A DNA stretch of 64,000 bases from Haliscomenobacter hydrossis DSM 1100 (lineage in GTDB: Bacteria > Bacteroidota > Bacteroidia > Chitinophagales > Saprospiraceae), in assembly GCF_000212735.1 (NCBI RefSeq), contig NC_015510.1, forward strand, positions 7,193,001 through 7,257,000. Direction: 5' to 3'. The translations under genes and the position numbers were made by a program. Below, piece after piece: positions 10,851-49,186 of this stretch. Each line of letters starts with the position of its first letter. Position 1 is the stretch's first letter. The notes beneath the pieces were generated by a model, which was given only the letters and a program-made list of their open reading frames with translations, had not been told where the DNA came from and made no database searches.

Positions 10851-10915
10851 CAAATATGCAGCCACTAGTTTTCATAAGGCTTACACAAATCCAGAAATAA
10901 TTTACATCATTCACA
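10851..10915 (-). promoter_or_regulatory. Composite stress promoter element, site 1 (for lmo0937-type gene)
   Basis: Reading the minus strand: TGTGAATGATGTAA, with the G of its GTAA core at 10905; TGTGTAAG, with the G of its core at 10884 (21 bp spacing); and TTTG beginning at 10854 (30 bp further). Same geometry as the other eleven sites. Confidence 0.8.
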
Positions 10916-11037
10916 GTTATAGCCAGAGAAATCAATACAATCAGTAACCTGCCAATGGGTAATCCATGCCCATTTTGCCTGGCGGACAGAAAAAATGCCA
11001 TTCCCCACTTTTCCCCAAAACGAGAAAAAAGGTTCCA

Positions 11038-11086
11038 CTATTTGGACACAAGCCCGCGGTACAGCAGCTGGTTTATGTCCAAATAG
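11038..11086. repeat. Inverted repeat between divergent stress promoters
   Basis: CTATTTGGACA at 11038-11048 pairs perfectly with TGTCCAAATAG at 11076-11086 around a 27-base loop. It lies in the 415-base gap between the divergent genes at 10812 and 11228. Apart from this and the two promoter elements I see no gene in the gap; an antisense frame of 81 codons there overlaps the promoter and is not convincing. Confidence 0.5.
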
Positions 11087-11112
11087 GCGACATTCTAAGT
11101 CATCAAAAAATG

Positions 11113-11177
11113 TGGGAATAATGCAATTCATTTTAAAAATTATGTAACACACTTTTCCTCGAATCCCCTGACCTTTG
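11113..11177 (+). promoter_or_regulatory. Composite stress promoter element, site 2
   Basis: TGGGAATAATGCAAT (core at 11123, degenerate: GCAAT instead of GTAAC), TATGTAAC (core at 11144, 21 bp later) and CCTTTG with TTTG at 11174. Transcription should start near 11184, just upstream of a six-codon mini-frame at 11200 and the gene at 11228. Confidence 0.78.
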
Positions 11178-11227
11178 TGCTCACAAACAACAAGTAGAAA
11201 TGGACAAAATTATTGGATAACAAACCA

Positions 11228-11668
11228 ATGCGTATGAAAACTTCTAACACTTCAGTAGAAAAATTATACCACAGCTACGGTACCAAACTTTACAGTATTG
11301 CCCTGGAAATTGCACCCAATCAAGCCGCAGCAGAAAAAATTCTCATCGGTACCTTTGTAAAAATTCACCGACAGCAATCGACCCTCTTAAACACACATTC
11401 CCCACCAATTTACATCACCTTAATCAAATTAATCCTCCAAACCGCCCACGAACAACTCTACACCAGCCAACTGAAATACAATTTTACACTCAAGCAATTT
11501 GCAAATACGCCGCTGTTGAACAAATTGATTTGTGAACAAATAAGTTTGGAAAACTACTGTACAGAAAACCAACTCACCCGCGCTGATGCAGCGAAAAAAA
11601 TTCGTGAAGAACTAATGTCCATCCGCAATTCCAAGCATCAAACTGCCACGCCACTCCCCAAATTTTAA
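11228..11668 (+). CDS. Degenerate sigma-factor-like (region 2 only) protein
   Basis: 146 residues from the ATG at 11228; a TTG at 11213 and an ATG at 11234 are alternatives. The N-terminal half (VEKLYHSYGTKLYSIALEIAPNQAAAEKILIGTFVKIHRQ) follows the pattern of ECF sigma region 2, 'LY..Y...LY.IA..I....A.AE.IL..TF..I', but conserved Asp/Glu residues are replaced. The C-terminal half lacks a clear region 4 helix-turn-helix. It could be a decayed sigma factor or a sigma-mimic that binds an anti-sigma factor; both are inference. It carries the stress promoter element and precedes the AI-2E transporter by 23 bases, so the two are probably co-transcribed. Confidence 0.6.
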   Translation: MRMKTSNTSVEKLYHSYGTKLYSIALEIAPNQAAAEKILIGTFVKIHRQQSTLLNTHSPPIYITLIKLILQTAHEQLYTSQLKYNFTLKQFANTPLLNKLICEQISLENYCTENQLTRADAAKKIREELMSIRNSKHQTATPLPKF

Positions 11669-11691
11669 ACATGCTCTAAGCACCTTCTAAC

Positions 11692-12837
11692 ATGGAAATG
11701 AGCACGTTGATTAAATTGCCTTTTTATGCAAAGACTGCACTCCTGTTGATTGGATTGTATGTGTTTGTTAGTATTCTTTCCATTGGGCAGGATATTATCC
11801 TTCCTCTTGTTTATGCCGCCATCATTGCCATTTCGGTTAGTCCGGTGGTCAGCTTTTTGGTCAAGAAAAAAATCAATCGGGCAATCGCCATTTTTATCGT
11901 ACTTATTTTGGCCCTGATGTTCATTGTGGGACTGATCCTATTATTGGTATCTCAAGCCAGTATGTTCAGCCAGGCTTGGCCCCAGTTGGTGCTTAAGTTT
12001 GATGATTTGTGCGATCAAGCCATTAACTGGGCTTCAGGCTGGTTAGGCGTTAGTATCCGGCAAATCAATACATGGATTACCGATACAAAAGCAGACCTTT
12101 GGAACAACAGCAATGCCGTGATCGGCATTACCTTAACCACCATGAGTGGGGTGCTGGCTGCCATTTTCCTTACCCCAGTGTATATTTTTATGATTTTATT
12201 TTACCAGCCGCATTTGGTAGAGTTCGCCCATCGTTTGTTTGGCGTGGCCAACAACAGCCAGGTAAGTGAAATCCTGACAGAGACGAAGACCATTATTCAG
12301 GGCTACCTCGTCGGGCTATTTGCCGAATTTGCGATTGTAGCGGTACTGAATATTCTGGGACTATTGGTACTTCGGATGGAATACGCCATCCTGCTGGGCA
12401 TTGTAGGTGCTCTCCTCAACGTGATTCCCTATCTTGGTGGAATTATTGCGATGGGGCTCTTCGCCGCGATTGCCCTGGTGACCAAATCACCAATTTATAT
12501 TGCTTATGTCATCGTACTTTACTCGGTCATTCAATTCATCGACAACAATTACATCGTTCCCAAAATTGTGGGCTCAAAAGTGAAGCTTAATGCCCTCATC
12601 TCTATCGTTGCTGTGATTGTGGGTGCCGCCATTTGGGGTATCCCTGGGATGTTTCTTTCCATTCCACTCACGGCGGTCATCAAACTCATTCTCGATCGCA
12701 TTGAACCCTGGAAACCCTGGGGCTTTTTATTGGGGGATACCATGCCTCCACTGGTCAAACTGGATCTGAATTTCAGCGGCATTGTCAAAAAGACAAAGCG
12801 CAAGGAAAAAAGTGTGAAAGATGTAACTCTTCCCTAG
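11692..12837 (+). CDS. AI-2E family transporter (PerM-like)
   Basis: 381 residues of a polytopic inner-membrane protein. Hydrophobic segments appear at about 10-30, 32-52, 60-85, 150-175, 205-225, 230-260, 265-285 and 300-330, with the conserved C-terminal block of the family (LLNVIPYLGGIIAMG, then IQFIDNNYIVPKIVGSKVKLNAL and IPGMFLSIPLTAVIKLI). Family members export small molecules such as AI-2, or act as Na+/H+ exchangers in some bacteria; the substrate here is unknown. It lies 23 bases after the sigma-like gene and probably shares promoter site 2. The last codons overlap the first half-site of promoter site 3. Confidence 0.92.
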   Translation: MEMSTLIKLPFYAKTALLLIGLYVFVSILSIGQDIILPLVYAAIIAISVSPVVSFLVKKKINRAIAIFIVLILALMFIVGLILLLVSQASMFSQAWPQLVLKFDDLCDQAINWASGWLGVSIRQINTWITDTKADLWNNSNAVIGITLTTMSGVLAAIFLTPVYIFMILFYQPHLVEFAHRLFGVANNSQVSEILTETKTIIQGYLVGLFAEFAIVAVLNILGLLVLRMEYAILLGIVGALLNVIPYLGGIIAMGLFAAIALVTKSPIYIAYVIVLYSVIQFIDNNYIVPKIVGSKVKLNALISIVAVIVGAAIWGIPGMFLSIPLTAVIKLILDRIEPWKPWGFLLGDTMPPLVKLDLNFSGIVKKTKRKEKSVKDVTLP

Positions 12838-12877
12838 AATTATGTAATGTATGTTACTTGTAAATCAACGAAATTTG
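12813..12877 (+). promoter_or_regulatory. Composite stress promoter element, site 3
   Basis: TGTGAAAGATGTAAC (core at 12823, inside the end of the AI-2E gene), TATGTAAT (core at 12844) and TTTG at 12874. Spacings are 21 and 30 bp. The position of the -7 box makes the GTG at 12882 too early for a start and favours the ATG at 12909. Confidence 0.82.
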
Positions 12878-12908
12878 TATTGTGAAAATTCATTCACTAT
12901 TAAAGTTT

Positions 12909-13316
12909 ATGAAATTGAAAAAGAGAAAACTACTGGCACTCCTGGCCATCGTATCGGTTTTTTTATTCGTCGGCTGTCAAAAAGACGATTATGTGGAAAT
13001 CGTGGGACTCTGTCCCGTTGTCGTATCCACTAGCCCCGCAAATGGAGCCACCAGTGTACCACTGCTCAATGTCATTACGGTAAGGTTCAATGAGCGGATG
13101 AATCCAGCTACCCTCAATGCTACTTCCTTTAGTTTACAAGCAGCAAGTGCAGTTGCGGGAACGATTTCGTATACCGATACCACGGCAACTTTTACTCCTG
13201 CTATTCCCCTCAGCCCGAATACGACGTATACAGGTAAGCTTACTACGGCAGCAAAGTCTTTAAAAGGCAACGCCCTACAAGCAGATTATGTCTGGAGCTT
13301 CAGCACCTTTCAATAA
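12909..13316 (+). CDS. Lipoprotein with bacterial Ig-like (Big_5) domain
   Basis: 135 residues. The lipoprotein signal peptide (MKLKKRKLLALLAIVSVFLFVGC) ends in a lipobox with Cys at about 23. The mature part is one Ig-like domain of the Big_5/SbsA type: VVVSTSPANGATSVPLLNVITVRFNERMNPATLN, then ISYTDTTATFTPAIPLSPNTTYT and YVWSFSTF. Such domains usually occur in tandem in larger surface proteins; a stand-alone single domain is unusual. It is transcribed from stress promoter site 3. Its role is unknown, perhaps an envelope-anchored binding protein. Confidence 0.88.
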   Translation: MKLKKRKLLALLAIVSVFLFVGCQKDDYVEIVGLCPVVVSTSPANGATSVPLLNVITVRFNERMNPATLNATSFSLQAASAVAGTISYTDTTATFTPAIPLSPNTTYTGKLTTAAKSLKGNALQADYVWSFSTFQ

Positions 13317-13374
13317 TCATTTCGCAAAATCAGGTACTTGATCACTTGATCAAAACACCTTAAATCATAAAAAT

Positions 13375-17962: not shown

Positions 17963-18000
17963 TGTGTGAATTATGTAACTCTTCCTACTGATCGTGTAAC
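17891..18000 (+). repeat. Imperfect direct repeat, left copy (antiporter 3' end plus promoter element)
   Basis: This stretch, made of the last codons of the antiporter gene and the two half-sites of promoter site 4, aligns with 23179-23290. Shared blocks include TGATCCGCAG, TTGGAAAAAGT, CGACCACGA and TATGTAACTC. The two copies flank the glycan cassette. Confidence 0.8.
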
Positions 18001-18029
18001 GCTTTACTTGATTAAGAACACTACCTTTG
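17965..18029 (+). promoter_or_regulatory. Composite stress promoter element, site 4 (glycan cassette)
   Basis: TGTGAATTATGTAAC (core at 17975), CGTGTAAC (core at 17996) and TACCTTTG with TTTG at 18026. Spacings are 21 and 30 bp. It begins two bases after the antiporter stop codon. Confidence 0.85.
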
Positions 18030-18104: not shown

Positions 18105-19265
18105 ATGGTCATTGAAAAAAAAACCACGATGCAGCTTGTTTGCTTTTCTCATTTGGCATGGAAATTTGTTTACCAGCGTCCACAGCATCTATTAAGCCGT
18201 TTTACAAAAAAATATGATGTTTATTATATAGAAGAGTTTATCTACAGTACGGAAGAAGATGGCTACTCCATAAACATTACCAATGAAAATGTTACGGTCA
18301 TTGTGCCACATTTGTGCAACAGCATTCAAGAAGTACGGAATGAAACCAAAAGAAAAGAAATTATTCTAAAAAATCTGTTCAAAGAGCACTCCATACAATC
18401 CTATATTTTCTGGTATTACACCCCAATGGCACTTGCTTATACTGTTAATTTTAATCCCTTGGCTACAGTATATGATTGTATGGATGAGTTAAGTGCTTTT
18501 AAATTTGCGCCACCGGAGCTAAAAAAATATGAACAGGAATTATTTAAAAAAGCGAATGTCGTTTTTACCGGTGGCAACAACTTGTATAAGGCCAAGAAGG
18601 CACAGCATCATAATATTCACTCTTTCCCCAGCAGCATTGATAAAGCACATTTTAAAGCAGCCAGAGATAACAAAAAGGAAGTTGCAGACCAGTCCGCTAT
18701 ACCACATCCCCGTCTAGGATTCTATGGGGTAATCGATGAACGTTTTGATATTGATTTAATCAAGCAGGCAGCGGATGCAAAACCTGAGTGGCATTTTGTT
18801 TTAGTAGGGCCGGTGATAAAAATTGATGCTGCCACGTTACCTCAAAATAAAAATATCCATTATCTCGGCGCTAAAACTTATGAAGAGTTACCATCCTACC
18901 TTAGTGGCTGGGATATTGCCATGATTCCATTTGCCATCAATGAATCTACCCGCTATATCAGTCCTACTAAAACACCGGAATACCTTGCCGGTGGAAAGCC
19001 GGTAATTTCTACAGCCATCACCGATGTCATCAACCCTTATCATGAATTGGGCTTAGTGCATATTGTACAAAATGCAGAAGACCTACTACAAATGGCCACA
19101 TCAGAATTAAGTATAACCGACAAGAGTGAATGGCTGTGCAAGGTTGACGAATACCTCAGTACCATATCCTGGGATGCCACCTGGGGAAGGATGGATGAAT
19201 TGATGCAAAATGAAATTGAGGCGAATCCCAATTTACTAACCGACAAAATCAATCAATATGTATGA
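18105..19265 (+). CDS. Glycosyltransferase (TuaH-like, GT4/GT-B fold)
   Basis: 386 residues from the ATG at 18105; a TTG-initiated longer form from 18048 is possible but adds a non-conserved leader. The opening LVCFSHLAWKFVYQRPQHLL is the signature of the TuaH-type family, whose members add sugars in teichuronic-acid-like or exopolysaccharide synthesis. The second Rossmann domain shows RLGFYGVIDERFDIDLI, then WHFVLVGP, and the donor-binding region ISPTKTPEYLAGGKPVIST. The 3' end overlaps the UDP-galactopyranose mutase gene by 8 bases. It is the first gene of the cassette driven by promoter site 4. Base use looks more AT-rich than in the antiporter gene before it. Confidence 0.88.
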   Translation: MVIEKKTTMQLVCFSHLAWKFVYQRPQHLLSRFTKKYDVYYIEEFIYSTEEDGYSINITNENVTVIVPHLCNSIQEVRNETKRKEIILKNLFKEHSIQSYIFWYYTPMALAYTVNFNPLATVYDCMDELSAFKFAPPELKKYEQELFKKANVVFTGGNNLYKAKKAQHHNIHSFPSSIDKAHFKAARDNKKEVADQSAIPHPRLGFYGVIDERFDIDLIKQAADAKPEWHFVLVGPVIKIDAATLPQNKNIHYLGAKTYEELPSYLSGWDIAMIPFAINESTRYISPTKTPEYLAGGKPVISTAITDVINPYHELGLVHIVQNAEDLLQMATSELSITDKSEWLCKVDEYLSTISWDATWGRMDELMQNEIEANPNLLTDKINQYV

Positions 19266-20409
19266 TTATTTAATCGTGGGTGCAGGACTGGCAGGGTCGG
19301 TACTGGCAGAGCGCTTGGCATCAAAAGCCAATAAAAAGATTTTATTGATTGACAAAAGAAATCACATTGGCGGAAACACTTTTGATTATTACAACAGCGA
19401 TGGTATTTTGGTGCATAAATACGGGCCTCATATTTTTCATACCAACAGCAAAGAAATTTTCGATTACCTCGGCAACTTTACGGAATGGCGGCCTTATGAA
19501 CACCACGTTTTGGCAAGTGTGGATGGGCAGTTGGTACCCATACCGATCAATCAAAATACCGTCAATGCCTTGTATGGGTTAAATCTTTCTCAGCTGCAGG
19601 TACAGGATTTTTTTAATTCAAAAGCAGAAAAAAAAGACCAGATACTTACCTCAGAAGATGTGGTGGTCAATGCAGTGGGTAGAGAACTATACGAGAAATT
19701 TTTTAAGCATTATACAGTTAAACAATGGGGGCTGGATCCATCCGAACTGGATGCTTCAGTAACGGCAAGGGTACCCACCCGAACCAATAAAGACAACCGT
19801 TATTTTACGGATAGTTATCAGGCAATGCCTCTGCATGGTTACACCAATATGTTTCACCGCTTATTGGACCATCCCAATATACATATCATGCTCAACACAG
19901 ATTATAAAGATCTGGTTGATGAAATCAAATTTCAGACGCTGATTTATTCCGGACCTATTGATGCCTATTTTGATTTTTGTTTCGGAAAGCTTCCTTACCG
20001 CTCCATCAATTTTAAAAGCCAAACCATCGACAGTGAAAATTACCAGCCAACCGGAACCGTGAATTATCCCATGAGCCAGGCGTATACCCGTATCACAGAA
20101 TTTAAACACCTAACCGGACAAAAGCATGAGAAAACTTCCATTGTATTTGAATACCCTACCGCAGAAGGCGATCCCTATTATCCAATACCCCGTAAAGAAA
20201 ATATGGAGATATACAATCGGTATAAAACATTGGCTGCATCAGAACCCAATACGTTTTTCACAGGGCGTTTGGGTACTTACAAATATTACAATATGGATCA
20301 GGTAATCGCTCAATCACTAGCCTTGTTCAAAAAAATAATGCAGGCGGAACATCTCCATATTGTGCATGACCCAATCAAATCATCAAACGGCACAACGCAG
20401 CTTAGTTAG
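19258..20409 (+). CDS. glf: UDP-galactopyranose mutase
   Basis: 383 residues. This flavoenzyme interconverts UDP-galactopyranose and UDP-galactofuranose in the cytoplasm and supplies Galf for surface glycans. The FAD-binding motif is near the N-terminus (YLIVGAGLAGSVLAERLA, about 4-21), followed by IDKRNHIGGNTFDY and HKYGPHIFHTNSKEIF, all hallmark Glf segments. YSGPIDAYFDFCFGKLPYRS and the C-terminal GRLGTYKYYNMDQVIAQSL complete the family pattern. It overlaps the preceding glycosyltransferase by 8 bases and is followed 14 bases later by the first glycosidase, showing a tight operon. Confidence 0.97.
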   Translation: MYDYLIVGAGLAGSVLAERLASKANKKILLIDKRNHIGGNTFDYYNSDGILVHKYGPHIFHTNSKEIFDYLGNFTEWRPYEHHVLASVDGQLVPIPINQNTVNALYGLNLSQLQVQDFFNSKAEKKDQILTSEDVVVNAVGRELYEKFFKHYTVKQWGLDPSELDASVTARVPTRTNKDNRYFTDSYQAMPLHGYTNMFHRLLDHPNIHIMLNTDYKDLVDEIKFQTLIYSGPIDAYFDFCFGKLPYRSINFKSQTIDSENYQPTGTVNYPMSQAYTRITEFKHLTGQKHEKTSIVFEYPTAEGDPYYPIPRKENMEIYNRYKTLAASEPNTFFTGRLGTYKYYNMDQVIAQSLALFKKIMQAEHLHIVHDPIKSSNGTTQLS

Positions 20410-20423
20410 AACATTGAAAAACC

Positions 20424-21569
20424 ATGAACAATACTAACCCTTTTCATTCTTTTTGGATGGCTGGTTACGAATGTGCCGACCACTTAAATGCTTTTGGTAT
20501 AAGGGTTGACCTGATTAACACGACCGGCCACCTTCATTTAATGGATACCGACTATAAAAACCTTGCTCCATTTAAAATTTCTACCGTACGTGAAGGAATA
20601 AGATGGAGCAAGGTGGAAACAAAACCTTATCAATATGACTGGTCTGTGGTCGGTAATATGATCCAAAGTGGCAAGGCCAACAACATACAACAAGTTTGGG
20701 ATTTATGCCATTTTGGATACCCCGATGATTTAACTCCTTTACACCCTCAATTCACCAATCGGTTTGTAGCCTTGTGTACTGCCTTTGTACAGTTTTATAG
20801 AAGCGTCGATACTAAGTCAACTTTAATTGTTACGCCAATCAATGAAGTAAGCTTTTTATCCTGGTTAGGAGGAGATGTAAAGGGTACCTCACCTTACTGC
20901 ACCAACCAGGGTTGGGAGGTGAAGTACAATTTAATGAAAGCTTACATCAAAGGAATTGATGCCCTAAAAGCCGCTGACCCATCCGTGCGTATTTTAACTA
21001 CTGAACCACTAATCAATATCGTGCCGGGTTATGCTGCAACAAGTGAAGAAATAGAACATGCTGCAGGATTGCATGAAGCCCAATTTCAGGTGACAGAAAT
21101 TTTGTGTGGTAGGATGTGCCCTGAATTAGGGGGTAGCGCAGATTACCTGGATATATTGGGCTATAATTTTTATTACAACAATCAATGGACATCAGCACCA
21201 CATGAATTCTTGGATTGGAAAATAGGCGAGGCAAATCCAAAATTTATTCCACTGCATCAGTTGCTGATGACAGCGTTCAAAAAATACAATCGCCCATTTG
21301 CACTAACCGAAACCAGCCACCCCAAAGAAGACCGGCCACTGTGGATTAAAATGATTGAAGCCGAATCACTAAAATTGTTACAAGCGGAGCTGCCTTTTTG
21401 GGGCATTTGCTGGTATCCGATGGTCAATCGGCCCGATTGGGATTATTTACATGATTGGCATTATGCCGGCATATGGGATGACGTCTACCATACAGATTCG
21501 CCAGTAAGAGCATTGCATGTACCGAGTGCAGAAGCACTGTTGTGGGCACAAAGCATCTTAAATAAATAA
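20424..21569 (+). CDS. GH1-like (clan GH-A) glycosidase or related protein
   Basis: 381 residues, no signal peptide. It has a TIM-barrel glycosidase pattern: ISTVREGIRWSKVE, QVWDLCHFGYPDDL, the acid/base region TPINEVSF (Glu about 140) and the likely nucleophile LTETSHP (Glu about 296), then GICWYPMVNRPDWDY. This spacing fits family 1 or a close GH-A family. It is shorter than usual GH1 enzymes (about 450 residues), so substrate loops are reduced. Lying behind a glycosyltransferase and glf, it may trim or transfer sugars on a stress-related glycan. It is paralogous to the next gene. Confidence 0.82.
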   Translation: MNNTNPFHSFWMAGYECADHLNAFGIRVDLINTTGHLHLMDTDYKNLAPFKISTVREGIRWSKVETKPYQYDWSVVGNMIQSGKANNIQQVWDLCHFGYPDDLTPLHPQFTNRFVALCTAFVQFYRSVDTKSTLIVTPINEVSFLSWLGGDVKGTSPYCTNQGWEVKYNLMKAYIKGIDALKAADPSVRILTTEPLINIVPGYAATSEEIEHAAGLHEAQFQVTEILCGRMCPELGGSADYLDILGYNFYYNNQWTSAPHEFLDWKIGEANPKFIPLHQLLMTAFKKYNRPFALTETSHPKEDRPLWIKMIEAESLKLLQAELPFWGICWYPMVNRPDWDYLHDWHYAGIWDDVYHTDSPVRALHVPSAEALLWAQSILNK

Positions 21570-21573
21570 TCTT

Positions 21574-22782
21574 ATGCACGGAAGTAAATTCATGTTTGCC
21601 ACTGGAATTGAAAATAGTTATCCCAATATTTTGTTGCCGGATGGTACGACCAAACGGGTGGATGAAATGGAGAAGACTGGACATTACCTCCAATGGGAAA
21701 GAGACTTTGATTTAGTGAAAGAAATGGGCATAGAATTTTTGCGCTATGGCCCACCTTATTACAAAACACATACCGCACCGGGTAAATTTGACTGGTCTTT
21801 TACGGATCTTACGTTTAACCGGCTGCAGGAAATGGGCATTACACCCTTGGTTGACCTCTGTCATTTCGGTGTGCCAGACTGGTTAGGGAATTTTCAAAAT
21901 CCAGACTTTCCCTTTTATTTTGCTGAGTATGCAAGTGCTTTTGCCACCAGGTTTCCTCAACTGCAGTTTTATACGCCGATTAATGAAATATTTATAGCTG
22001 CAATGTTTTCTGCACAATATGGCTGGTGGAACGAAAGGCTGAGTTCTGATGAGGCTTTTGTCAACGCTTTAAAAAACCTGTCAAAAGCAAATGTCATGGC
22101 CATGCATGCCATTCTAAAAATCCAACCAGAAGCAACTTTTATCCAAAGTGAATCCACCGAATATTTTCATGCTACCGAGCCAAAAGCATTGCCACTGGCC
22201 CGTTTTCTGAATCAAAAGAGATTTCTCTCACTTGACCTTACCTATGGCTTTCCCCTCAATGTTACCATGTATGAATACTTGCTGCAAAATGGGATGACTA
22301 AAAGCGAATACTTTTGGTTTGCACAAAACCAGGTAAAAGCAAGGTGTATAATGGGCAATGATTATTATGTAACGAATGAACACCTGGTGCATCCCGATGG
22401 ACATACCCAAGCATCGGGCGAGGTATTTGGGTACTATGTGTTAACCAATCAGTATTACAACCGGTACAAATTACCCATCATGCATACTGAAACAAATATA
22501 AAAATGCCAGCGTGTAAAGAGTGGCTGTTGAAACAGTGGGCGAACCTGCACCGGCTTAAGCAAGATGGAGTGCCGATTATAGGCTTTACCTGGTACAGTT
22601 TACTGCATCAGGTTGATTGGGATTCTGCACTGAGGAATGATGCAGGAAACATCAATGAGCTGGGCTTGTACGACTTGGATCGAAACATCATGCCAGTAGG
22701 AGTAGCGTATAAACATTTGATCAAAGAATGGAAAGATATCCTCTTGGAAGAAAGTTATGGACTCCTATTTCAGCACCATTGA
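21574..22782 (+). CDS. GH1-like glycosidase
   Basis: 402 residues, no signal peptide, 4 bases after the preceding paralogue. The N-terminus FATGIENSYP is typical of GH1-type proteins. Barrel motifs are FLRYGPPYYKTH, PLVDLCHFGVPDWLG, TPINEIF (acid/base Glu about 137) and MHTETNI (nucleophile Glu about 305), then GFTWYSLLHQVDWDSAL. A beta-glycosidase activity is expected from the family; the substrate is unknown. The pair of related glycosidases directly behind a glycosyltransferase and a UDP-galactopyranose mutase suggests maturation of a galactofuranose-containing glycan, which is inference. Confidence 0.85.
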   Translation: MHGSKFMFATGIENSYPNILLPDGTTKRVDEMEKTGHYLQWERDFDLVKEMGIEFLRYGPPYYKTHTAPGKFDWSFTDLTFNRLQEMGITPLVDLCHFGVPDWLGNFQNPDFPFYFAEYASAFATRFPQLQFYTPINEIFIAAMFSAQYGWWNERLSSDEAFVNALKNLSKANVMAMHAILKIQPEATFIQSESTEYFHATEPKALPLARFLNQKRFLSLDLTYGFPLNVTMYEYLLQNGMTKSEYFWFAQNQVKARCIMGNDYYVTNEHLVHPDGHTQASGEVFGYYVLTNQYYNRYKLPIMHTETNIKMPACKEWLLKQWANLHRLKQDGVPIIGFTWYSLLHQVDWDSALRNDAGNINELGLYDLDRNIMPVGVAYKHLIKEWKDILLEESYGLLFQHH

Positions 22783-31508: not shown

Positions 31509-31727
31509 ATGCAAAAATCCTTGGGTTTCATCCTGATTATCATTGGCATAATCATGATTGCATACACTGGATTCACCTATGTCACTACCGAAAAGGTAGT
31601 TGACATAGGTCCAATTCAGATCGAAAAAAAGAAGAACAACCCCATTCGTTGGTCACCTATTCTGGGGGTAGTACTACTCGCAGGAGGCTTAGTGGTGATT
31701 GCGACTGGAAAAAAGACAAATGTGTGA
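31509..31727 (+). CDS. Small two-helix membrane protein
   Basis: 72 residues with two hydrophobic helices (about 5-24, LGFILIIIGIIMIAYTGF, and about 50-66, ILGVVLLAGGLVVIATG), separated by a polar segment (TTEKVVDIGPIQIEKKKNNP). This pattern recurs in small stress-associated membrane proteins of Bacteroidota; I cannot give a family with certainty. It starts 3 bases after the giant gene and is probably co-transcribed with it. Its last codons, AAT GTG TGA, are part of promoter site 7. Confidence 0.8.
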   Translation: MQKSLGFILIIIGIIMIAYTGFTYVTTEKVVDIGPIQIEKKKNNPIRWSPILGVVLLAGGLVVIATGKKTNV

Positions 31728-31787
31728 AAGATGTAACTCTTAGGCGGAATTGTGTAACGCTTAACCGTACTGAAATTCGCAACTTTG
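31723..31787 (+). promoter_or_regulatory. Composite stress promoter element, site 7 (YtxH operon)
   Basis: TGTGAAAGATGTAAC (core at 31733), TGTGTAAC (core at 31754) and ACTTTG with TTTG at 31784. Spacings 21 and 30 bp. One of the best matches to the consensus. Confidence 0.86.
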
Positions 31788-34211: not shown

Positions 34212-34796
34212 TTGAAGCTATACATCAAGTACATGTTGAGCAACCGCTGCAAAATGGCGGTAAAAGAAGAGTTGAAAAAACTGGGGCTGCACTTTGTCGT
34301 GGTTGACTTGGGTGAAGTTGAGATCATGGAAGAGCTCTCCGCTGAACAGCACAGGCAGCTGCGTGCGGGGCTACTTGGCATCGGACTGGAACTGATGGAG
34401 GATAAAAAAGGCGTCCTGATCGAGAAAATAAAAAAGGCCATTTCTGACATGCTGAATCAGAGCGAGGAGACTGACAAAGTGAATTTTTCGGATTTTTTAA
34501 GCGAAAAATTAGATCAGGAATACACTTTTCTGGCCAATCTTTTTTCGGAAGTACAGGGCATTACCATCGCACAATACATCATTGCCCGCAAAGTTGAACT
34601 GATCAAAGATTTGATCCTGTTTGATCAGCTCAGTATTACTGAAATTGCCTGGAAAATGAATTACAGCAGTGTGGCTCATTTGTCCAACCAGTTTAAAAAA
34701 GTTACCGGACTAACTCCTTCTCAGTTTAAACAATTGAAGAACAAAAAGCGAAACCCGGTTGAAGAAATTGAAACCTTAAACGACATCCGCCAATAA
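34212..34796 (+). CDS. AraC-type regulator with HMA-like N-terminal domain, paralogue 1
   Basis: 194 residues. The TTG at 34212 is supported by the paralogue ending at 54191, which begins with the same MKLYIKYM from an ATG. Residues 1-65 follow the beta-alpha-beta pattern of heavy-metal-associated domains, but the CxxC is SxxC (YMLSNRCKMAVKEELKKLG). Residues about 95-185 are an AraC DNA-binding domain with two helix-turn-helices (SITEIAWKMNYSSVAHLSNQFKKVTGLTPSQFK). It likely binds directly repeated half-sites. It lies 1 base before the hybrid kinase gene, so the two are co-expressed. Candidate activator of the stress promoter element. Confidence 0.88.
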   Translation: MKLYIKYMLSNRCKMAVKEELKKLGLHFVVVDLGEVEIMEELSAEQHRQLRAGLLGIGLELMEDKKGVLIEKIKKAISDMLNQSEETDKVNFSDFLSEKLDQEYTFLANLFSEVQGITIAQYIIARKVELIKDLILFDQLSITEIAWKMNYSSVAHLSNQFKKVTGLTPSQFKQLKNKKRNPVEEIETLNDIRQ

Positions 34797-34797
34797 C

Positions 34798-37383
34798 ATG
34801 GAAATAGAAATGAAAGAGCCCCTGGACAAAACGACTGCTGAAAACCCTGGATCAAACCAGTGGGCGATTACCCGCAAAACTATGGAGGCTCAGGCGCTGA
34901 TGGTGCAAAACATGCTCATGACGCTTCCGGCATTTGTCTGTATCCTGCGGGGCGCTGACTATGTTTTTGATTTTGTCAATCCCCATTATCAACAATTGTT
35001 TGGCAAGCGGGAATTGTTGGGCAAGCCCCTGCTCGTAGCACTTCCCGAATTGGCCGGGCAGGGCATTGAGCAGATATTGGAAGAGGTGTACCGTACGGGT
35101 GAACCATATATTGGTGTAGATCTGCCATTTTTATTGGCCCGCGATGAAAACATGGAGCCTGAATTGCGGTATTTCAATTTTTGCTACCAGCCCATGCGCG
35201 ATGAGCACAACCAGATTTTTGCCGTTTTAGACTACGGGTATGAAGTGACCGAGCAGGTCAATGCCAAAACATCCAACCAGAAAAACGAGCAGCAAAACGC
35301 GCTGGAGCTGGAAGAAAAGGTCCAACAACGCACCTTTGACCTCAGCGCAGCCAATGGGGTACTGCGCAAGAAAAATCAGGAAATTGAAGAAACCCGCGGA
35401 AAATTATTGTCAGAATACGCACGGAGCCTGATTGAAGCAAGTCTTGACCCTTTGATCACCATCAGCACCAAGGGAAAAATTACGGACCACAACGAGGCTT
35501 TGGCGAATATTACTGGCAAAACCCGTCAGCAATTGATTGGCAGTGACTTCAGTCTTTATTTCACTGAACCAGAAAAAGCCAGTGAAGTATACGAGGAAGT
35601 TTTTGAAAAAGGCTTTGTGACCAATTATCCGCTCACCATTATTGATGGAGAGCTCACCAACGTGTTGTTCAACGGTTCGGTGTACAAAGATGAAAAAGGA
35701 AATGTGCTGGGAGCGGTGGTCGTAGCCCGAGACATCACCGCGCAAAAAAGAATCGAATCGGAATTGATCGAAGCCAAAGTCTTTGCCGAACTGGCCAAGG
35801 GCATTGCTGAAACAGCACAAAGCAGTGCCGAAAGTGCCACGCAGATCGCCGTAGACGCGGTTAAAGCCAAACAACAGTTTTTGTCCAACATGAGCCACGA
35901 GATCCGTACACCCATGAACGCGATCATCGGGTTCACCAAAGTGGTACTAAAAACGGAACTCAGCGCCAAACAAAAGGAATATTTAACCGCCATCAAGATG
36001 AGCGGCGATGCCTTGATCGTACTCATCAACGACATTCTCGATCTGGCGAAGGTGGATGCAGGAAAAATGGATTTTGAAGAAACCCCTTTCCGCCTGGCTT
36101 TTTCGATCACAGCCATGCTGCATTTGTTTGAAACCAAAATTCAAGAGAAAAATTTGGCATTGGTTAAAGTATACGACGAGGAAATTCCCGAGGTGTTGGT
36201 GGGTGACCCCGTGCGCCTGCACCAAATCATCTTAAACCTGGTCAGCAATGCGGTGAAATTCACCAACAAAGGCCAGATCACCGTAAGTGTGCGCATGCTG
36301 CACGCCGATGCGGATAAAGTGACCATTGAATTTGCCGTGGCGGACACTGGAATTGGTATCACCAAGGATAAAATACCCACTATTTTTGAAAATTTTCAAC
36401 AGGCCTCCAGCGGCACCTCCCGGTTGTATGGTGGAACGGGACTGGGGCTGGCCATTGCCAAACAATTGGTAGAAAAACAGGGTGGAACCATTCGCGTAGA
36501 AAGTGTGGTGGAGCAGGGTTCAACCTTCAGTTTTATCCTGGATTTTAGAAAAACCAATGCCGAAGCACAATTTGAAACCGAGATCATCGAGCTGGATGCG
36601 GAAATCAAAAACATTAACGTATTGGTGGTAGAAGACATGGCCCTCAATCAACTGCTGATGAAAACGGTACTGGATGATTTTGGGTTCGAATGCGACATTA
36701 CGGCGAATGGAAAATTGGCCATCGAAAAACTGGAAACCAAATCGTACGACATCATTTTGATGGACTTACAAATGCCCGAAATGAACGGGTTTGAAGCCAC
36801 GGAATACATCCGCAATACCCTGCATTCTGCGATTCCCATCATCGCCTTGACCGCCGATGTCACCACTGTTGATTTGGCAAAATGTAAAGCCGTAGGCATG
36901 AACGATTACATCGCCAAACCCGTTGATGAGCGGGTGTTGTACACTAAAATAGTGGGGCTGGTGAAAAAACCGTTCCTCGATAGCAAGCTTGCGCACAGAA
37001 ACCATGAGCAAATCAACAAAATAAAATACACCGATTTAGACTATCTGGTGCAACGCACCAAGAACAATGCCGAGATGATCACGGCCATGATTATGGCTTA
37101 TCTGGAACAAACTCCCCCTTTGATCAGCACCATGAAGCAGAGCCTGTTGAAACAGGATTGGAAAGCATTACAGGCCGCAGTACACAAAATGATTCCCTCT
37201 TTTTCCATTATGGGCATCAGCGCCGATTTTGAAAGTATGGCCAAAAAGGTGCAGGAATTTGCTCGTACCCAACAACAAACCGATGAAATTCAGAGCATGG
37301 TCTTGCAACTGGAAAACGTGTGCCAACAAGCCTGCCGTGAATTAGAGGAAGAACTCAAGCGGATCAAAAAAATCAACCCATGA
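34798..37383 (+). CDS. Hybrid sensor histidine kinase (PAS-PAS-HisKA-HATPase-REC-Hpt)
   Basis: 861 residues without membrane helices, so a cytoplasmic sensor. PAS 1 about 35-150 (LPAFVCILRGADYVFDFVNP), coiled coil about 155-205, PAS 2 about 208-320 (SLDPLITISTKGKITDHNEAL), HisKA with H-box NMSHEIRTPMN (His about 367), ATPase domain with NLVSNAVKF, ADTGIGI and GGTGLGLA (about 475-590), receiver domain (VLVVEDMALN, phospho-acceptor Asp in ILMDLQMPEMNG about 654), and a C-terminal Hpt-like domain (AAVHKMIPSFS, His about 796). A phosphorelay to the downstream single-domain regulator is likely, as their genes overlap by 4 bases. Confidence 0.95.
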   Translation: MEIEMKEPLDKTTAENPGSNQWAITRKTMEAQALMVQNMLMTLPAFVCILRGADYVFDFVNPHYQQLFGKRELLGKPLLVALPELAGQGIEQILEEVYRTGEPYIGVDLPFLLARDENMEPELRYFNFCYQPMRDEHNQIFAVLDYGYEVTEQVNAKTSNQKNEQQNALELEEKVQQRTFDLSAANGVLRKKNQEIEETRGKLLSEYARSLIEASLDPLITISTKGKITDHNEALANITGKTRQQLIGSDFSLYFTEPEKASEVYEEVFEKGFVTNYPLTIIDGELTNVLFNGSVYKDEKGNVLGAVVVARDITAQKRIESELIEAKVFAELAKGIAETAQSSAESATQIAVDAVKAKQQFLSNMSHEIRTPMNAIIGFTKVVLKTELSAKQKEYLTAIKMSGDALIVLINDILDLAKVDAGKMDFEETPFRLAFSITAMLHLFETKIQEKNLALVKVYDEEIPEVLVGDPVRLHQIILNLVSNAVKFTNKGQITVSVRMLHADADKVTIEFAVADTGIGITKDKIPTIFENFQQASSGTSRLYGGTGLGLAIAKQLVEKQGGTIRVESVVEQGSTFSFILDFRKTNAEAQFETEIIELDAEIKNINVLVVEDMALNQLLMKTVLDDFGFECDITANGKLAIEKLETKSYDIILMDLQMPEMNGFEATEYIRNTLHSAIPIIALTADVTTVDLAKCKAVGMNDYIAKPVDERVLYTKIVGLVKKPFLDSKLAHRNHEQINKIKYTDLDYLVQRTKNNAEMITAMIMAYLEQTPPLISTMKQSLLKQDWKALQAAVHKMIPSFSIMGISADFESMAKKVQEFARTQQQTDEIQSMVLQLENVCQQACRELEEELKRIKKINP

Positions 37384-37814
37384 AAAAAGAAACAAAAATC
37401 AAAATTTTTTTGGTAGACGACGATGCCGTTTTCCTGAAGCTCTTGGAAATTGAATTCCTCCAGCATGCGGATTATGTCATCAAGACTTTTGCGACTGGTG
37501 AACTTTGCCTGGCAAATTTGTCCTTCAACCCGGATATTGTCATTCTGGATTACCACCTCGATGGGATCGATAAAAATGCCATCAATGGAATCCAGACCCT
37601 CGACAAGATCAAAGCATACAATCCCGATATTGCCGTGGTGATGTTGTCTTCTCAAGACAAGATTGACGTAGCGGTAAATTGTATGCACCACCTGGCTTTT
37701 GACTACGTGGTGAAAAGTGAAACGGCCTTCTTCCGCTTACAAAAAAACATCACCACCATTTTCAGATTCAAAAAAATCGAGAAGGAATTGAGTTGGTACA
37801 TGGAGCGGATGTAG
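37380..37814 (+). CDS. Single-domain response regulator
   Basis: 144 residues: a receiver domain with the acidic pocket FLVDDD, phospho-acceptor Asp in IVILDYHLDG (about 58), Ser/Thr switch in VMLSSQD and Lys in DYVVKSE. There is no DNA-binding output domain; the C-terminus is a short helix (FRFKKIEKELSWYM). It overlaps the hybrid kinase by 4 bases and probably receives phosphate from its Hpt domain, passing the signal by protein contact, perhaps to the AraC-type protein of the same operon (inference). Confidence 0.93.
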   Translation: MKKETKIKIFLVDDDAVFLKLLEIEFLQHADYVIKTFATGELCLANLSFNPDIVILDYHLDGIDKNAINGIQTLDKIKAYNPDIAVVMLSSQDKIDVAVNCMHHLAFDYVVKSETAFFRLQKNITTIFRFKKIEKELSWYMERM

Positions 37815-37834: not shown

Positions 37835-37879
37835 GTAAAAGTTTAGCACCCCGATGAAGTCGGGGTGCTAAACTTTTAC
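37835..37879. terminator. Bidirectional terminator hairpin
   Basis: A perfect 20-base inverted repeat (37835-37854 and 37860-37879) with a 5-base loop. The right arm contains the stop codon of the convergent YihY gene. GC core CACCCCGA/TCGGGGTG with A/T-rich outer arms on both sides. Confidence 0.88.
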
Positions 37880-38842
37880 CTCGTCGGAGATGAATACAGG
37901 CTTTTCGACGACAATTTCTTTTATTTCTACAAAAACAGCAAATGGATTGGGGCGGATCTTCCCCCCATGTTCATTGGCATAAATCTTGGTGAATTCCGCG
38001 CCGAAATAGAGGATGAAGGCTGAATAATACACCCACAGGATGATCAGTACCACGGCGCCAGCGCCGCCGTAAACCGATAGAGTAGTGGACTGACTGAGGT
38101 ACAGATTGATCACATATTTCCCTAGCAAGAACAATACGGCAGTAAAAGCCGAACCCACCAAAACATCTTTCCATTTCAATTGGGCATCGGGCAATACTTT
38201 GAAAATTACCGCAAACAGCAGCAGTACAATACTCAGGGTCAATATATTGCTGATGATGTAGGCCAGCCAGGCAAAAGAGATGACGTTGGTGCTGATCCAG
38301 TTGTCGAGCAAACTCAAGGTGGCACTCAAGACCAATGAAACCAACAACAAAAAACCAATGCCCACCACCATCGAAAAAGAAACCAGGCGGGTTGTGATGA
38401 AGCGCAGCCAACTCCGTTTTGGCTTGGCCCGGATGGACCAGATGATGTTGATGGAATCCTGGATTTCAATAAAAACCCCGGTTGCGCCCAGAAAAAAAGT
38501 AAGGATTCCGACGGCCGTCACCCAGGGCGTGTCGCCAGAGATGCGGACATTGTTGATCAGTTCCTGCAATTGGATCGCACCGGTTGTCCCCATCAGCCCC
38601 TCGAACTGTAGATAGAGGTAGCCCTCCGCCGCTTCTTTTCCCAGCAAAATACTGCCAATCGCAATCACGATCAGCAACATGGGCGCCATCGAAAAGAGGG
38701 TGTAGTAGGCCAGCGATGCACTCAATTTGGGTCCATTGTCGCCAAGGAACTCCCATGCGGCCAGGCGCAGCAAGCGCCCGAAAGCGAGGAAACCTAGCCA
38801 AAGGTTTTTAGGGGAAAGTCGGGAAAGCAAAGACATTTTCAT
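37868..38842 (-). CDS. YihY/BrkB-family membrane protein
   Basis: 324 residues with about six membrane segments. The N-terminal LGDNGPKLSASLAYYTLFSMAPMLLIVIAI is the hallmark of the YihY/BrkB family, once mis-named ribonuclease BN. A WVYYSAFILYFGAEFTKIYA segment near the C-terminus is also conserved. The function is unknown; a transport role is suspected. The expected transcription start from promoter site 8 falls almost on the first ATG, so the message is nearly leaderless; the second ATG at 38836 is an alternative start. Divergent from catalase. Confidence 0.93.
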   Translation of the reverse strand: MKMSLLSRLSPKNLWLGFLAFGRLLRLAAWEFLGDNGPKLSASLAYYTLFSMAPMLLIVIAIGSILLGKEAAEGYLYLQFEGLMGTTGAIQLQELINNVRISGDTPWVTAVGILTFFLGATGVFIEIQDSINIIWSIRAKPKRSWLRFITTRLVSFSMVVGIGFLLLVSLVLSATLSLLDNWISTNVISFAWLAYIISNILTLSIVLLLFAVIFKVLPDAQLKWKDVLVGSAFTAVLFLLGKYVINLYLSQSTTLSVYGGAGAVVLIILWVYYSAFILYFGAEFTKIYANEHGGKIRPNPFAVFVEIKEIVVEKPVFISDEVKV

Positions 38843-38848: not shown

Positions 38849-38913
38849 CAAAGATGTTCGCAATTGGTGGTAAAGCCCTTACACAATTCCATAAAAAAGT
38901 TACATTATTCACG
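38849..38913 (-). promoter_or_regulatory. Composite stress promoter element, site 8 (YihY gene)
   Basis: Minus strand: CGTGAATAATGTAAC (core at 38903), TGTGTAAG (core at 38882) and TCTTTG with TTTG at 38852. Spacings 21 and 30 bp. It lies back to back with site 9. Confidence 0.85.
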
Positions 38914-44250: not shown

Positions 44251-44251
44251 A

Positions 44252-46473: not shown

Positions 46474-46584
46474 AAATATTGCGCTAAATTTAGAACCAAT
46501 CGCCCTTGCCATCCTGGGGGCGGGTTTTTTAACCCCTGCAATTCTAAGTGCTGGAACCTTATCTGCAATAAATCAAAAAACACC

Positions 46585-47148
46585 ATGACCATTTACATCC
46601 AATACATGGTTTCGTTTCGATGCAAATTGTTGGTGAAAGCTGAACTCGATAAGCTCGGGTTGCTCTATACGGCCGTAGAGCTGGGTGAAGTGCAACTCAA
46701 GGACAGCCTGAGCGCTGCTCAGCACGCCCAGCTGAGCACTGCCCTCTTAAAATCCGGCCTTGAGTTGATGAGCAACAAAAAAACCATTCTGATTGAAAAA
46801 ATAAAGCACATTGTGATTGAAATGGTGCACCACCAGGGTGATACACCGGTGATCAATGCTTCGGCGTTCATCAGTGAAAAATTAAACTACGATTTTAATT
46901 ACCTCTCCAAGCTTTTTTCGGAAGTAAAAGGCACGACCATTGAGCACTACATCATCGCCCACAAAATTGAACGAGTCAAGGAACTGTTGTTGTATGATGA
47001 ACTCAATCTTACCGAAATATCCTATCAACTGAATTACAGCAGTGTGGCACACCTTTCCGGCCAATTCAAAAAAATCACGGGCTTGACGCCTACGCATTTC
47101 AAAAAAATGAAGGCGTACAAAAAACGCATCACCCATGAAAATGTGTGA
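46585..47148 (+). CDS. AraC-type regulator with HMA-like N-terminal domain, paralogue 2
   Basis: 187 residues from the ATG at 46585, which matches the paralogues (MTIYIQYMVSFRCK). The N-terminal domain (1-65) again has YMxSxRCKxxVKxELxxLG and ends SGLELMSNKK. The AraC domain occupies about 95-180 (NLTEISYQLNYSSVAHLSGQFKKITGLTPTHFK). The last codons (AAT GTG TGA) belong to stress promoter site 11. It probably activates target genes by binding direct repeats; the N-terminal domain may sense a metal or small ligand, or mediate dimerisation (inference). Confidence 0.9.
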   Translation: MTIYIQYMVSFRCKLLVKAELDKLGLLYTAVELGEVQLKDSLSAAQHAQLSTALLKSGLELMSNKKTILIEKIKHIVIEMVHHQGDTPVINASAFISEKLNYDFNYLSKLFSEVKGTTIEHYIIAHKIERVKELLLYDELNLTEISYQLNYSSVAHLSGQFKKITGLTPTHFKKMKAYKKRITHENV

Positions 47149-47208
47149 ATAATGTAACTCTATTCACGAATTGTGTAACGCTTTTTGCATAGAATACCCT
47201 CACCTTTG
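47144..47208 (+). promoter_or_regulatory. Composite stress promoter element, site 11
   Basis: TGTGAATAATGTAAC (core at 47154), TGTGTAAC (core at 47175) and ACCTTTG with TTTG at 47205. Spacings 21 and 30 bp. Confidence 0.86.
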
Positions 47209-47245
47209 TAGGGTGATAAAATTTAAATCACAACAACAACATACT

Positions 47246-47710
47246 ATGAGAAAACCAATTTTTATCCTGGCCGTAGCCATGCTTACGGCAGGATCGTTTT
47301 TTACCAGTTGCCAGACACCCGCTGAAAAAGTAGATACTGCCGAAACCAATGTGGATGAGGCCCAGCAAGATTTGAAGGACGCGAAGCAAGAAGAAATTAC
47401 TGCCGAGCAAAGAGCGGCTGATGCAGAGGAATGGACGCTGTTTCAGACGGATACCGAAGTAAAAATCAAAGCCAACGAAACCCGTATTGCCGAACTTAGG
47501 GCGAAAAAGAGAACTTCCGGGACCAAAATGGATGTAACCTATTCCCAACGTATTGATACCCTGGAACAAAGAAATGTAGCCATGCGTACCTGGTTGAATG
47601 ATTACGATAAATCAGGCACCGATTGGGCAATATTCAAGCGTGAATTCAACCGCGACATGGACGAGCTCGGTCAAGCCTTGAAGAATTTAACCGTTGACAA
47701 CAAGAATTAG
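47246..47710 (+). CDS. Coiled-coil lipoprotein
   Basis: 154 residues from the ATG at 47246. The signal peptide with lipobox (AGSFFTSC, Cys about 22) is followed by a long charged helix likely to form a coiled coil (VDTAETNVDEAQQDLKDAKQ, EEITAEQRAADAEEW) and a second helical part (KIKANETRIAELRAKK). It is thus a periplasmic or outer-membrane-anchored helical rod. It is expressed from stress promoter site 11 and followed by a hairpin, so it is a single-gene unit. No family name is certain. Confidence 0.87.
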   Translation: MRKPIFILAVAMLTAGSFFTSCQTPAEKVDTAETNVDEAQQDLKDAKQEEITAEQRAADAEEWTLFQTDTEVKIKANETRIAELRAKKRTSGTKMDVTYSQRIDTLEQRNVAMRTWLNDYDKSGTDWAIFKREFNRDMDELGQALKNLTVDNKN

Positions 47711-47712
47711 AC

Positions 47713-47766
47713 TTGTTGTAACGGGAGCGCTTGAGATCAAAAACATGCAGTCTCCCGTTACAACAA
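47713..47766 (+). terminator. Terminator hairpin after the coiled-coil lipoprotein gene
   Basis: TTGTTGTAACGGGAG at 47713-47727 pairs perfectly with CTCCCGTTACAACAA at 47752-47766, starting 3 bases after the stop codon. Confidence 0.8.
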
Positions 47767-47794
47767 ATCTATCGAACAAAAAACCAAGTGAACA

Positions 47795-47817
47795 AAGGCG
47801 GGTTCCCCACCCGCCTT
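47795..47817 (+). terminator. Short GC-rich hairpin
   Basis: AAGGCGGGT at 47795-47803 pairs with ACCCGCCTT at 47809-47817 around a 5-base loop and is followed by CTTTATTTT, as in an intrinsic terminator. It lies just before the 47848 gene, so it may end the upstream transcript or attenuate the next gene. Confidence 0.65.
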
Positions 47818-47847
47818 CTTTATTTTAACGTGCTAAAGACCACAAAC

Positions 47848-48228
47848 ATGATTGCAGGAAAAAAAATGGGCATTTGGTTGGATCACTCCAGTGCACACAT
47901 CACCATATTTGAAGCCGAACCCGCCGCAACACAAGATCTTGAATCAACCAAGATCAACCATAGCAATGATCATGGGTCTAGTGGGAATGAAAACATCACC
48001 AACAACAAAGACCAGAGCAAACAAGCTGAATACTACAAAAAACTGGCCGAGCTGATTAAAAACTATGATGAGGTGCTCCTGTTTGGACCTACGGATGCCA
48101 AGCTTGAATTGTGCAATGTATTAAAAGCAGATCATCATTTTGACAACATAAAAATTGATGTACTGTCAACGGATAAAATGACTGAAAATCAGGAACATGC
48201 ATTCGTTGCGGCGCATTTTTCAAAGTGA
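47848..48228 (+). CDS. Small protein resembling bacterial eRF1-like (baeRF) N-terminus
   Basis: 126 residues from the ATG at 47848. The start MIAGKKMGIWLDHSSAHITIFE recalls the 'xxWLDHxxAxI' opening of stress-linked eRF1-like or 'translational machinery' proteins. A polar Asn/Asp-rich linker follows, then YYKKLAELIKNYDEVLLFGPTDAKLEL and HAFVAAHFSK, like the eRF1 domain-3-like part that carries the FGPxxAK motif. It may therefore bind the ribosome under stress. The assignment rests on these two motifs only. Confidence 0.7.
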   Translation: MIAGKKMGIWLDHSSAHITIFEAEPAATQDLESTKINHSNDHGSSGNENITNNKDQSKQAEYYKKLAELIKNYDEVLLFGPTDAKLELCNVLKADHHFDNIKIDVLSTDKMTENQEHAFVAAHFSK

Positions 48229-48254
48229 AGAATGTAGGCTGTTGAAAATATTCA

Positions 48255-49010
48255 ATGTCACCCAAAATGAACTTTAAGACTGTGAAAAAACTAATTACTT
48301 CCTTGGCATTCTCCATACTTGCCTTCGCCGCAATGGCCCAGGAATTTGGCCTGCAACACACCCAGCGGGGCAATTTTGTCATAGGCTCCCGGATCGGGTT
48401 TTCTACTTCCAAATCATCCATAGATGTGCAATCAAACGCAGGTTCGATAAATGGAGACGGCGGCAGTTCTTCTCAATTCAATTTGTCGCCAGGGATTGGC
48501 TATTTCTTCGCCAGACACTTCGTGATGGGCATCAGCATGGACTGGCTCAGAACCAGTAGCAGGAGCGGCGTTGACCTCAGTGGAGGGACCGATCCTGCCC
48601 AGGAATCGGAAAACAACAATATCCTTTTTGGCCCATTTATCCGTTATTTTATTCCTTTTGGGGAGGACAAAGCCTTCTTCTTGGGGACAACCGTTGGTTT
48701 CGGAGATTCCAAAAACCGATTCATCGACGGCAATCAAGCCCAAACCATCGACAATAGCCTCTTGTCGATCGGAGCAGGTCCAGGCTTGACCATTTTTTCC
48801 AGCAACGGCCTCGCCCTTGAAGCACTAGCCAAATACAATTTCGCCAGAAGCATCAGCGAAATTAACATTCAGGACATCCAAAGAACTTCCAAAACCTGGA
48901 CCAATGCCGTAGATTTTTCGGTAGGGCTCCACTATTATTTCGGGGGAATTAGAGCCACAAATGACGCCAGGCTTGCACCAACGGAAACCAAAAAACCAGG
49001 ATTTTACTAG
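48255..49010 (+). CDS. Outer-membrane beta-barrel protein
   Basis: 251 residues; the ATG at 48267 (MNFKTVKKLITSLAFSILAF) is an equally good start. After the signal peptide (ending AMAQ) come strands typical of a small porin-like barrel: GNFVIGSRIGFSTSKSS, FNLSPGIGYFFARHFVMGI, NNILFGPFIRYFIPFG and DFSVGLHYYFGG. It ends in a short polar tail (TETKKPGFY). Likely an outer-membrane protein of unknown ligand. It follows the eRF1-like gene by 26 bases. Confidence 0.88.
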   Translation: MSPKMNFKTVKKLITSLAFSILAFAAMAQEFGLQHTQRGNFVIGSRIGFSTSKSSIDVQSNAGSINGDGGSSSQFNLSPGIGYFFARHFVMGISMDWLRTSSRSGVDLSGGTDPAQESENNNILFGPFIRYFIPFGEDKAFFLGTTVGFGDSKNRFIDGNQAQTIDNSLLSIGAGPGLTIFSSNGLALEALAKYNFARSISEINIQDIQRTSKTWTNAVDFSVGLHYYFGGIRATNDARLAPTETKKPGFY

Positions 49011-49121
49011 ATTTTCAGGTTAATGCAATAACGTGTAAACATAATTGGCTTATATACTCAATTTTTGAATGCGGGAGAGATGACAATCTCTTCCGCTTTT
49101 CATTTTAAAAGAAGTGAAATG

Positions 49122-49186
49122 TGGGAATAATGTAACTTTTTATTAAAACTATGTAACACATCCCCAACTCAATATACTTAAATTTG
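49122..49186 (+). promoter_or_regulatory. Composite stress promoter element, site 12
   Basis: TGGGAATAATGTAAC (core at 49132), TATGTAAC (core at 49153) and TAAATTTG with TTTG at 49183. Spacings 21 and 30 bp. The distal half-site has the same TGGGAATAAT variant as site 2. Confidence 0.85.

Follow-up and report, generated by a model that had tools for sequence, protein, structure and literature searches.

The island of twelve sites

The stretch analysed here, a 64-kb window of the Haliscomenobacter hydrossis DSM 1100 chromosome (NC_015510.1, positions 7,193,001 to 7,257,000), contains an island of promoters that share a rigid element made of two half-sites and a -7 box. Three genes coding for AraC-type regulators accompany it: araC_A and araC_B lie within the island and araC_C just past its last site. 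The initial annotation had listed twelve elements with fixed gaps, and all 12 stretches are present in the window where it had placed them. The features are listed below in window coordinates, and the score of each element is its leave-one-out score with the weight matrix.

10851..10915, minus strand: element, DUF5670 (lmo0937-type) gene 10660-10812(-) downstream; 42 bits; orthologous sites in loci L104, L107 and L109
11113..11177, plus strand: element, sigma-like gene and AI-2E transporter gene downstream; 47.5 bits
12813..12877, plus strand: element, Big_5 lipoprotein gene downstream; 53 bits; in the orthologous-site comparison
17965..18029, plus strand: element, glycosyltransferase gene and the next three genes (18105-22782) downstream; 46 bits
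23089..23153, minus strand: doubtful element, open reading frame (ORF) of 69 residues downstream; 5.3 bits
23254..23317, plus strand: element with 29-bp spacing, giant Ice_binding-domain adhesin gene 23355-31505 downstream; 41 bits; in the orthologous-site comparison
31723..31787, plus strand: element, YtxH gene and two small genes downstream; 51 bits; in the orthologous-site comparison
34212..34796, plus strand: araC_A, HMA-like N-terminal domain (SxxC) and AraC DNA-binding domain, TTG start
34798..37383, plus strand: hybrid histidine kinase (PAS-PAS-HisKA-HATPase-REC), conserved partner of araC_A
37380..37814, plus strand: single-domain receiver protein, conserved partner
38849..38913, minus strand: element, BrkB/YihY-type gene 37868-38842(-) downstream; 42.5 bits
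38924..38988, plus strand: element, catalase and DUF305 genes downstream; 54 bits
42302..42366, plus strand: element, gene of a 60-residue membrane protein downstream, followed by glycine-zipper OmpA, Usp, DUF892 and DUF2383 genes; 53 bits; in the orthologous-site comparison
46585..47148, plus strand: araC_B, start set at the residue homologous to its paralogs
47144..47208, plus strand: element fused to the araC_B stop codon, coiled-coil lipoprotein gene downstream; 70 bits
49122..49186, plus strand: element, gene of a 57-residue lysine-rich protein downstream; 53.5 bits; in the orthologous-site comparison
53631..54191, minus strand: araC_C; AlphaFold2 model with a mean predicted local distance difference test score (pLDDT) of 92

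Architecture of the element and statistical support

Column counts over the 12 sites define the element as two copies of GAATNRTGTAACNCTT placed 21 bp apart, followed by the TTTG of a -7 box 30 bp past the second core. The distal core TGTAA is found in 11 or 12 of the 12 sites at each position and the proximal one in all of them (12/12). The distance between cores is 21 in 12/12 sites; 11 sites have TTTG at a distance of 30, and the 23254 site has it at 29. TTTG itself and an A three bases 5' of it are present in 12/12 sites, and the full TA of TAnnTTTG in just 4/12. Two publications give TAnnTTTG as the -7 consensus of the phylum, with a less visible -33 box (PMC9723704, PMC7366714). At columns 32-38, where a -33 TTG box would fit, none of the 12 sites carries one, which bears out its reported absence.

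Leave-one-out scores range from 41 to 70 bits in 11 sites and fall to 5.3 bits in 23089(-). Near the position orthologous to the latter, locus L109 holds no minus-strand match. The fixed architecture was recovered as described, and 11 of the 12 elements are unmistakable while 23089(-) is doubtful. In 2.85 Mb of Markov-simulated sequence, searched on both strands, no match reached 10 bits. At a threshold of 20 bits, altering the 21-bp gap alone left 0 to 7 of 46 matches, and altering the -7 gap alone left 18 to 40 of them; the latter variants reveal little on the 30-bp gap because the half-sites alone exceed 20 bits.

Genomic occurrence and conservation

The H. hydrossis genome was scanned by pattern only, so that its site count is a lower bound. 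Allowing up to 3 mismatches, 26 matches were obtained against 4 for the reversed pattern; with up to 2 mismatches, the figures were 17 and 0. In the stretches scanned outside the window, nine sites are of the window type (43-54 bits) and one, of 36 bits, is of the metal type (see below for these types). Five of the nine form a second cluster, L093 (H. hydrossis chromosome 2222000-2241999). From their translations, the ORFs behind these five sites appear to encode a P-type ATPase (confirmed with Pfam), an acetate-kinase-like and a Dps-like protein, a membrane protein and a hydrolase.

The element is mostly intergenic and conserved between species. Among the sites of at least 35 bits outside the window, 3 of 112 lie within a stop-free frame of at least 150 codons, versus 285 of 400 random positions in the same loci. 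We compared 19 orthologous pairs, taken between the window and three genomes of the same genus plus one locus of a fourth. Identity was 81% in the half-site columns and 95% in the -7 columns; it was 49% in the spacer, 39% in the linker, 37% in the upstream flank and 56% in the downstream flank. In the same-genus genome G003, no match was found at up to 2 mismatches, and one weaker site (39.9 bits) precedes the orthologous lysine-rich gene. The median distance from TTTG to the start codon was 39 bases over 51 class-wide sites with ORFs picked by script.

A probable regulator family with the element often fused to its stop codon

The araC_A and araC_B proteins share 58% and 61% identity with araC_C, respectively. 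The regulator combines a ferredoxin-like, copper-chaperone-like domain with an AraC DNA-binding domain. The latter is a double helix-turn-helix (HTH) domain recognised in the family by Pfam (HTH_18) and also matched by its fold. The N-terminal domain has the ferredoxin-like beta-alpha-beta-beta-alpha-beta fold, for which ACT domains, of look-alike fold, score equally. Similarity to Pfam HMA was detected at E values up to 1 in 31 of 73 family members, the best being 1.6e-5, and araC_C has no HMA match. Over 112 family rows, the cysteine motif is of the CxRC type in 89 and of the CIRC/CVRC type in 8; the window proteins have no CxxC and all three carry SxxC. One cysteine is invariant in the 73 aligned members.

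The link between element and family comes from the araC genes themselves. At the 47144 site, the TGA of araC_B (47146-47148) forms columns 3-5 of the distal half-site. When the matrix built from the window only was applied to the regions around the araC genes, 9 of 34 rows had columns 3-5 of the element coinciding with the araC stop, and the alignment of elements by this codon is plain to the eye. We then considered the best 80 of 588 confirmed loci (one of them labelled Ignavibacteria, not Bacteroidota), which gave 79 named regulators after leaving out one incomplete locus. A generic element lies at most 100 bases away from 39 of these 79 regulators, 24 of them at the identical base, and as a control an element occurs at 12 of the 1144 other ORF ends in these loci. 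In many Bacteroidota, the stop codon of an araC gene of this family marks the exact start of the element, and the stop is part of the distal half-site. Such a fusion is what is expected of a regulator and its own operator. This arrangement is unusual and points to the regulator without experiments.

A metal-type majority and a stress-type clade

Most family members carry CxxC and, where an element follows, precede HMA or P-type ATPase genes. The tally started from 46 loci, which gave 45 downstream ORFs (L142 had none); L189, L196, L197, L199, L200, L201 and L210 were left out and L094 and L116 were added from relatives. Among the resulting 40 elements behind CxxC-type regulators, the next ORF encodes an HMA domain in all 40 and a P-type ATPase in 25. 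From this gene order we infer a metal identity for the CxxC type.

In the regulator tree, the window proteins fall in a clade of 25 rows (support 98/99; the bootstrap had not settled), comprising all 14 SxxC rows, 8 of CIRC type, 2 with another CxxC and 1 on a long branch. For the comparison of site types, the clade list was read off the tree by eye. Among the best 80 of 588 loci, 9 of the 10 named clade loci had window-type sites of at least 38 bits, with 18 sites over 178 kb; of the 70 named loci outside the clade, 1 had such a site (1 site in 1.25 Mb). Window-type sites are thus nearly confined to one araC clade, and the type of site goes with the clade of the regulator. The metal-type family appears to have given rise to the stress version. 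In four clade members (L189, L199, L200 and L201), the element near the araC stop is followed by a small ORF that is cupin-like by translation, not by a metal ATPase; Pfam Cupin_2 was found in 3 proteins of the set covering these ORFs, the Pfam tallies over alignments giving the first 25 families without the matching protein.

Target genes

The clade, often SxxC, pairs with window-type sites placed before a recurring set of genes: YtxH, CsbD, Dps, DUF5670, BON, BrkB, catalase and ice-binding protein. The window contributes DUF5670, AI-2E, Big_5, the Ice_binding adhesin, YtxH, BrkB, catalase with DUF305 and the small membrane protein gene. Elsewhere in H. hydrossis and in the clade loci, the targets include a Dps-like protein (by translation), BON, cupin, a KaiC-type ATPase, nitric oxide reductase and others, and a P-type ATPase is also among the window-type targets.

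In other families of the class, 67 sites were collected, of which 7 had a low score or no ORF. The first ORFs behind the remaining 60, picked by a simple script and in some cases wrong, encode Ice_binding (9), CsbD (5), receivers (3), OmpA (3), AraC itself (3), YceI (2), YtxH (2), BrkB (1), BON (1) and ferritin (1). We speak of a putative stress regulon mainly because, judged by gene content, the same types of targets recur in distant genomes.

Two individual cases may be mentioned. In L096, an apparent quinol-type nitric oxide reductase (10160-12403(-)) follows a window-type site, and a divergent araC whose motif reads ACESC is close by. In the window, the sigma-like protein behind the second element (11213-11668(+), 151 residues) has weak similarity to Bacteroidetes extracytoplasmic function (ECF) factors and is possibly a degenerate sigma factor.

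Kinase-receiver partners

The hybrid kinase and receiver that follow araC_A are a conserved pair: they come after araC in 11 of the 37 araC copies examined. This survey includes 15 class-wide rows beyond those of the regulator tree.

Distribution across genomes

A search with the N-terminal domain found the family in 24 of 60 relatives. At up to 2 mismatches, a site was present in 15 of the 24 genomes with araC versus 7 of the 36 without (p 0.001); the reversed pattern matched in 12 of the 60. This link is positive but weak because single matches arise by chance. Among 296 genomes, counted by eye from tables, the family was present in 20 of the 25 with at least 4 matches versus 119 of the 271 others (p 6e-4), and at least 4 matches of the reversed pattern were found in 1 of the 296.

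Proposed mechanism and its weighing

The comparison of genomes very probably identifies the HMA-like/AraC-family protein as a class II activator acting at the element, which would consist of an activator site and, behind it, a housekeeping -7 box, with a metal-type majority and one stress clade in the family. Each of the two 21-bp direct repeats would take up one monomer of the protein. The monomer on the proximal repeat would sit in place of the -33 box, and the protein would recruit RNA polymerase as a class II activator. For the majority of the family, gene order suggests that the CxxC N-terminal domain probably detects copper or a comparable metal and that the regulator turns on the gene behind it, which encodes a metal ATPase or an HMA protein. 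In the clade of the three window paralogs, serine often replaces the first cysteine, the regulator would have gained many stress targets, and the hybrid kinase and receiver that often accompany it would probably supply the signal. The whole is best read as an activator of metal-sensor type that has taken on the role of a stress regulator. The initial annotation had proposed an AraC-type class II activator, one regulator for all sites and a stress regulon. The activator proposal is strongly supported by comparison between genomes. This evidence, which was not at hand for the initial annotation, also supports a single element and a stress regulon: it comprises the joining of the element to stop codons within one araC family, the specificity of site type for an araC clade, the stress targets that recur in further families of the class and the half-sites conserved amid an unconserved spacer.

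More tentatively, and with somewhat less than even confidence, we propose that Bacteroidota possess a general stress response of their own, in which a kinase-receiver relay acts via an AraC activator derived from a metal sensor, CxxC having been lost and the operator having first been fused to the stop codon and then spread to dozens of stress promoters.

Several observations weigh against the AraC-family assignment. Of the 79 named regulators (from the best 80 of 588 loci), 40 have no close match right after their stop codon. Ten Flavobacterium regulators of CxxC type (L133, L134, L138, L143, L145, L146, L150, L153, L155 and L159) showed no element after the stop at up to 2 mismatches. Covariation between HTH and operator was significant in Mantel tests, yet almost as strong with the unconserved spacer; it is worthless as proof for this reason, and these tests are uninformative on the HTH-operator pairing. 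Finally, two genomes, G252 and G296, have 13 and 15 element matches and no family member was found in them. In the regions examined, they are rich in window-type sites (L240-L243) before the same kinds of stress genes. Each has two AraC-type genes at E values up to 1e-8, all of other kinds. Either the araC gene is missing from these assemblies or another protein is able to use the site.

The family might regulate the sites while the clade still answers a metal or redox cue, the stress genes being part of a metal response. The metal-type gene order elsewhere in the family, the cysteine kept in 73/73 members and the P-type ATPase among the window-type targets would fit; we nevertheless judge this rather unlikely, given that the first cysteine has become serine in 14 of 25 clade rows, that the targets are broad and that kinase-receiver partners are present.

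Another activator of direct repeats, such as a LytTR response regulator, could bind the element, the araC genes being mere neighbours. LytTR sites are also about 21 bp apart, the same repeat period as that of the element, and G252 and G296, with sites and no araC of the family, have LytTR genes (16 and 2, respectively). On the H. hydrossis chromosome, to which this count was confined with site 23089(-) left out, 0 of 42 LytTR genes lie within 10 kb of a site, versus 6 of 6 araC genes of the family. Moreover, many genera have the element joined to an araC stop codon, and the type of site goes with the araC clade. LytTR proteins, none of which is near the sites in the H. hydrossis genome, were dropped as the main candidate, and we regard their involvement as improbable.

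An alternative (ECF) sigma factor might use the element as its promoter, as the resemblance of TGTAAC to a known ECF -35 box, the weak sigma-like protein at 11213-11668 among the targets and an ECF gene at 55210-55734 could suggest. This is extremely improbable and was rejected on geometry: two copies 21 bp apart with a housekeeping-type TTTG 30 bp further on are at odds with a -35/-10 pair. The spacer, moreover, lacks conservation, and the link to araC would be left unexplained.

Comparison with known systems

No description of the element or of the regulator family was found in the open-licence literature searched. New here are the identification of the regulator family through the operator-stop fusion, the separation of the metal-type majority from the stress-type clade and the conserved kinase-receiver partner. 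AraC binds direct repeats at araI1-I2, the proximal one at the -35 region, as a class II activator. The proteins described here resemble such AraC/XylS activators (AraC at araI1-I2, SoxS, MarA) in their HTH_18 domain and fold, and the element, judged from sequence, would share with AraC direct repeats one monomer long with the proximal one at the -35 region. They differ from AraC by an N-terminal domain that is ferredoxin-like or HMA-like instead of a cupin arm, and from the class II systems by an operator often fused to the stop codon of the regulator gene and by a Bacteroidota -7 box with no -33 box. CueR is a metal-responsive copA activator of the MerR family; gene order suggests a similar control of metal ATPases in the CxxC type, with an unrelated DNA-binding domain and a different promoter geometry.

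Sigma-B, RpoS and PhyR-EcfG command general stress regulons whose targets overlap with those found here (YtxH, CsbD, Dps, catalase, DUF5670/lmo0937). Unlike them, the present system would rely on an AraC-type activator and a housekeeping -7 box where those have an alternative sigma factor. Guts, soils and sewage sludge abound in Bacteroidota, for which, to our knowledge, no master regulator of stress on a par with RpoS or sigma-B has been established. The analysis yields a regulator family, a precise operator, predicted targets across numerous genera and two proteins that probably form a signalling pair, and may show a route from a metal-type regulator to a global one.

In Bacteroides thetaiotaomicron, the promoter motif PM2 is tied to oxidative-stress genes; its description presents it as near-palindromic, centred at -10 and -30, and credits it to a possible alternative sigma factor (PMC7366714). 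Compared by that description, PM2 and the element are both stress-linked promoter motifs of the same phylum, and the element differs by its direct repeats.
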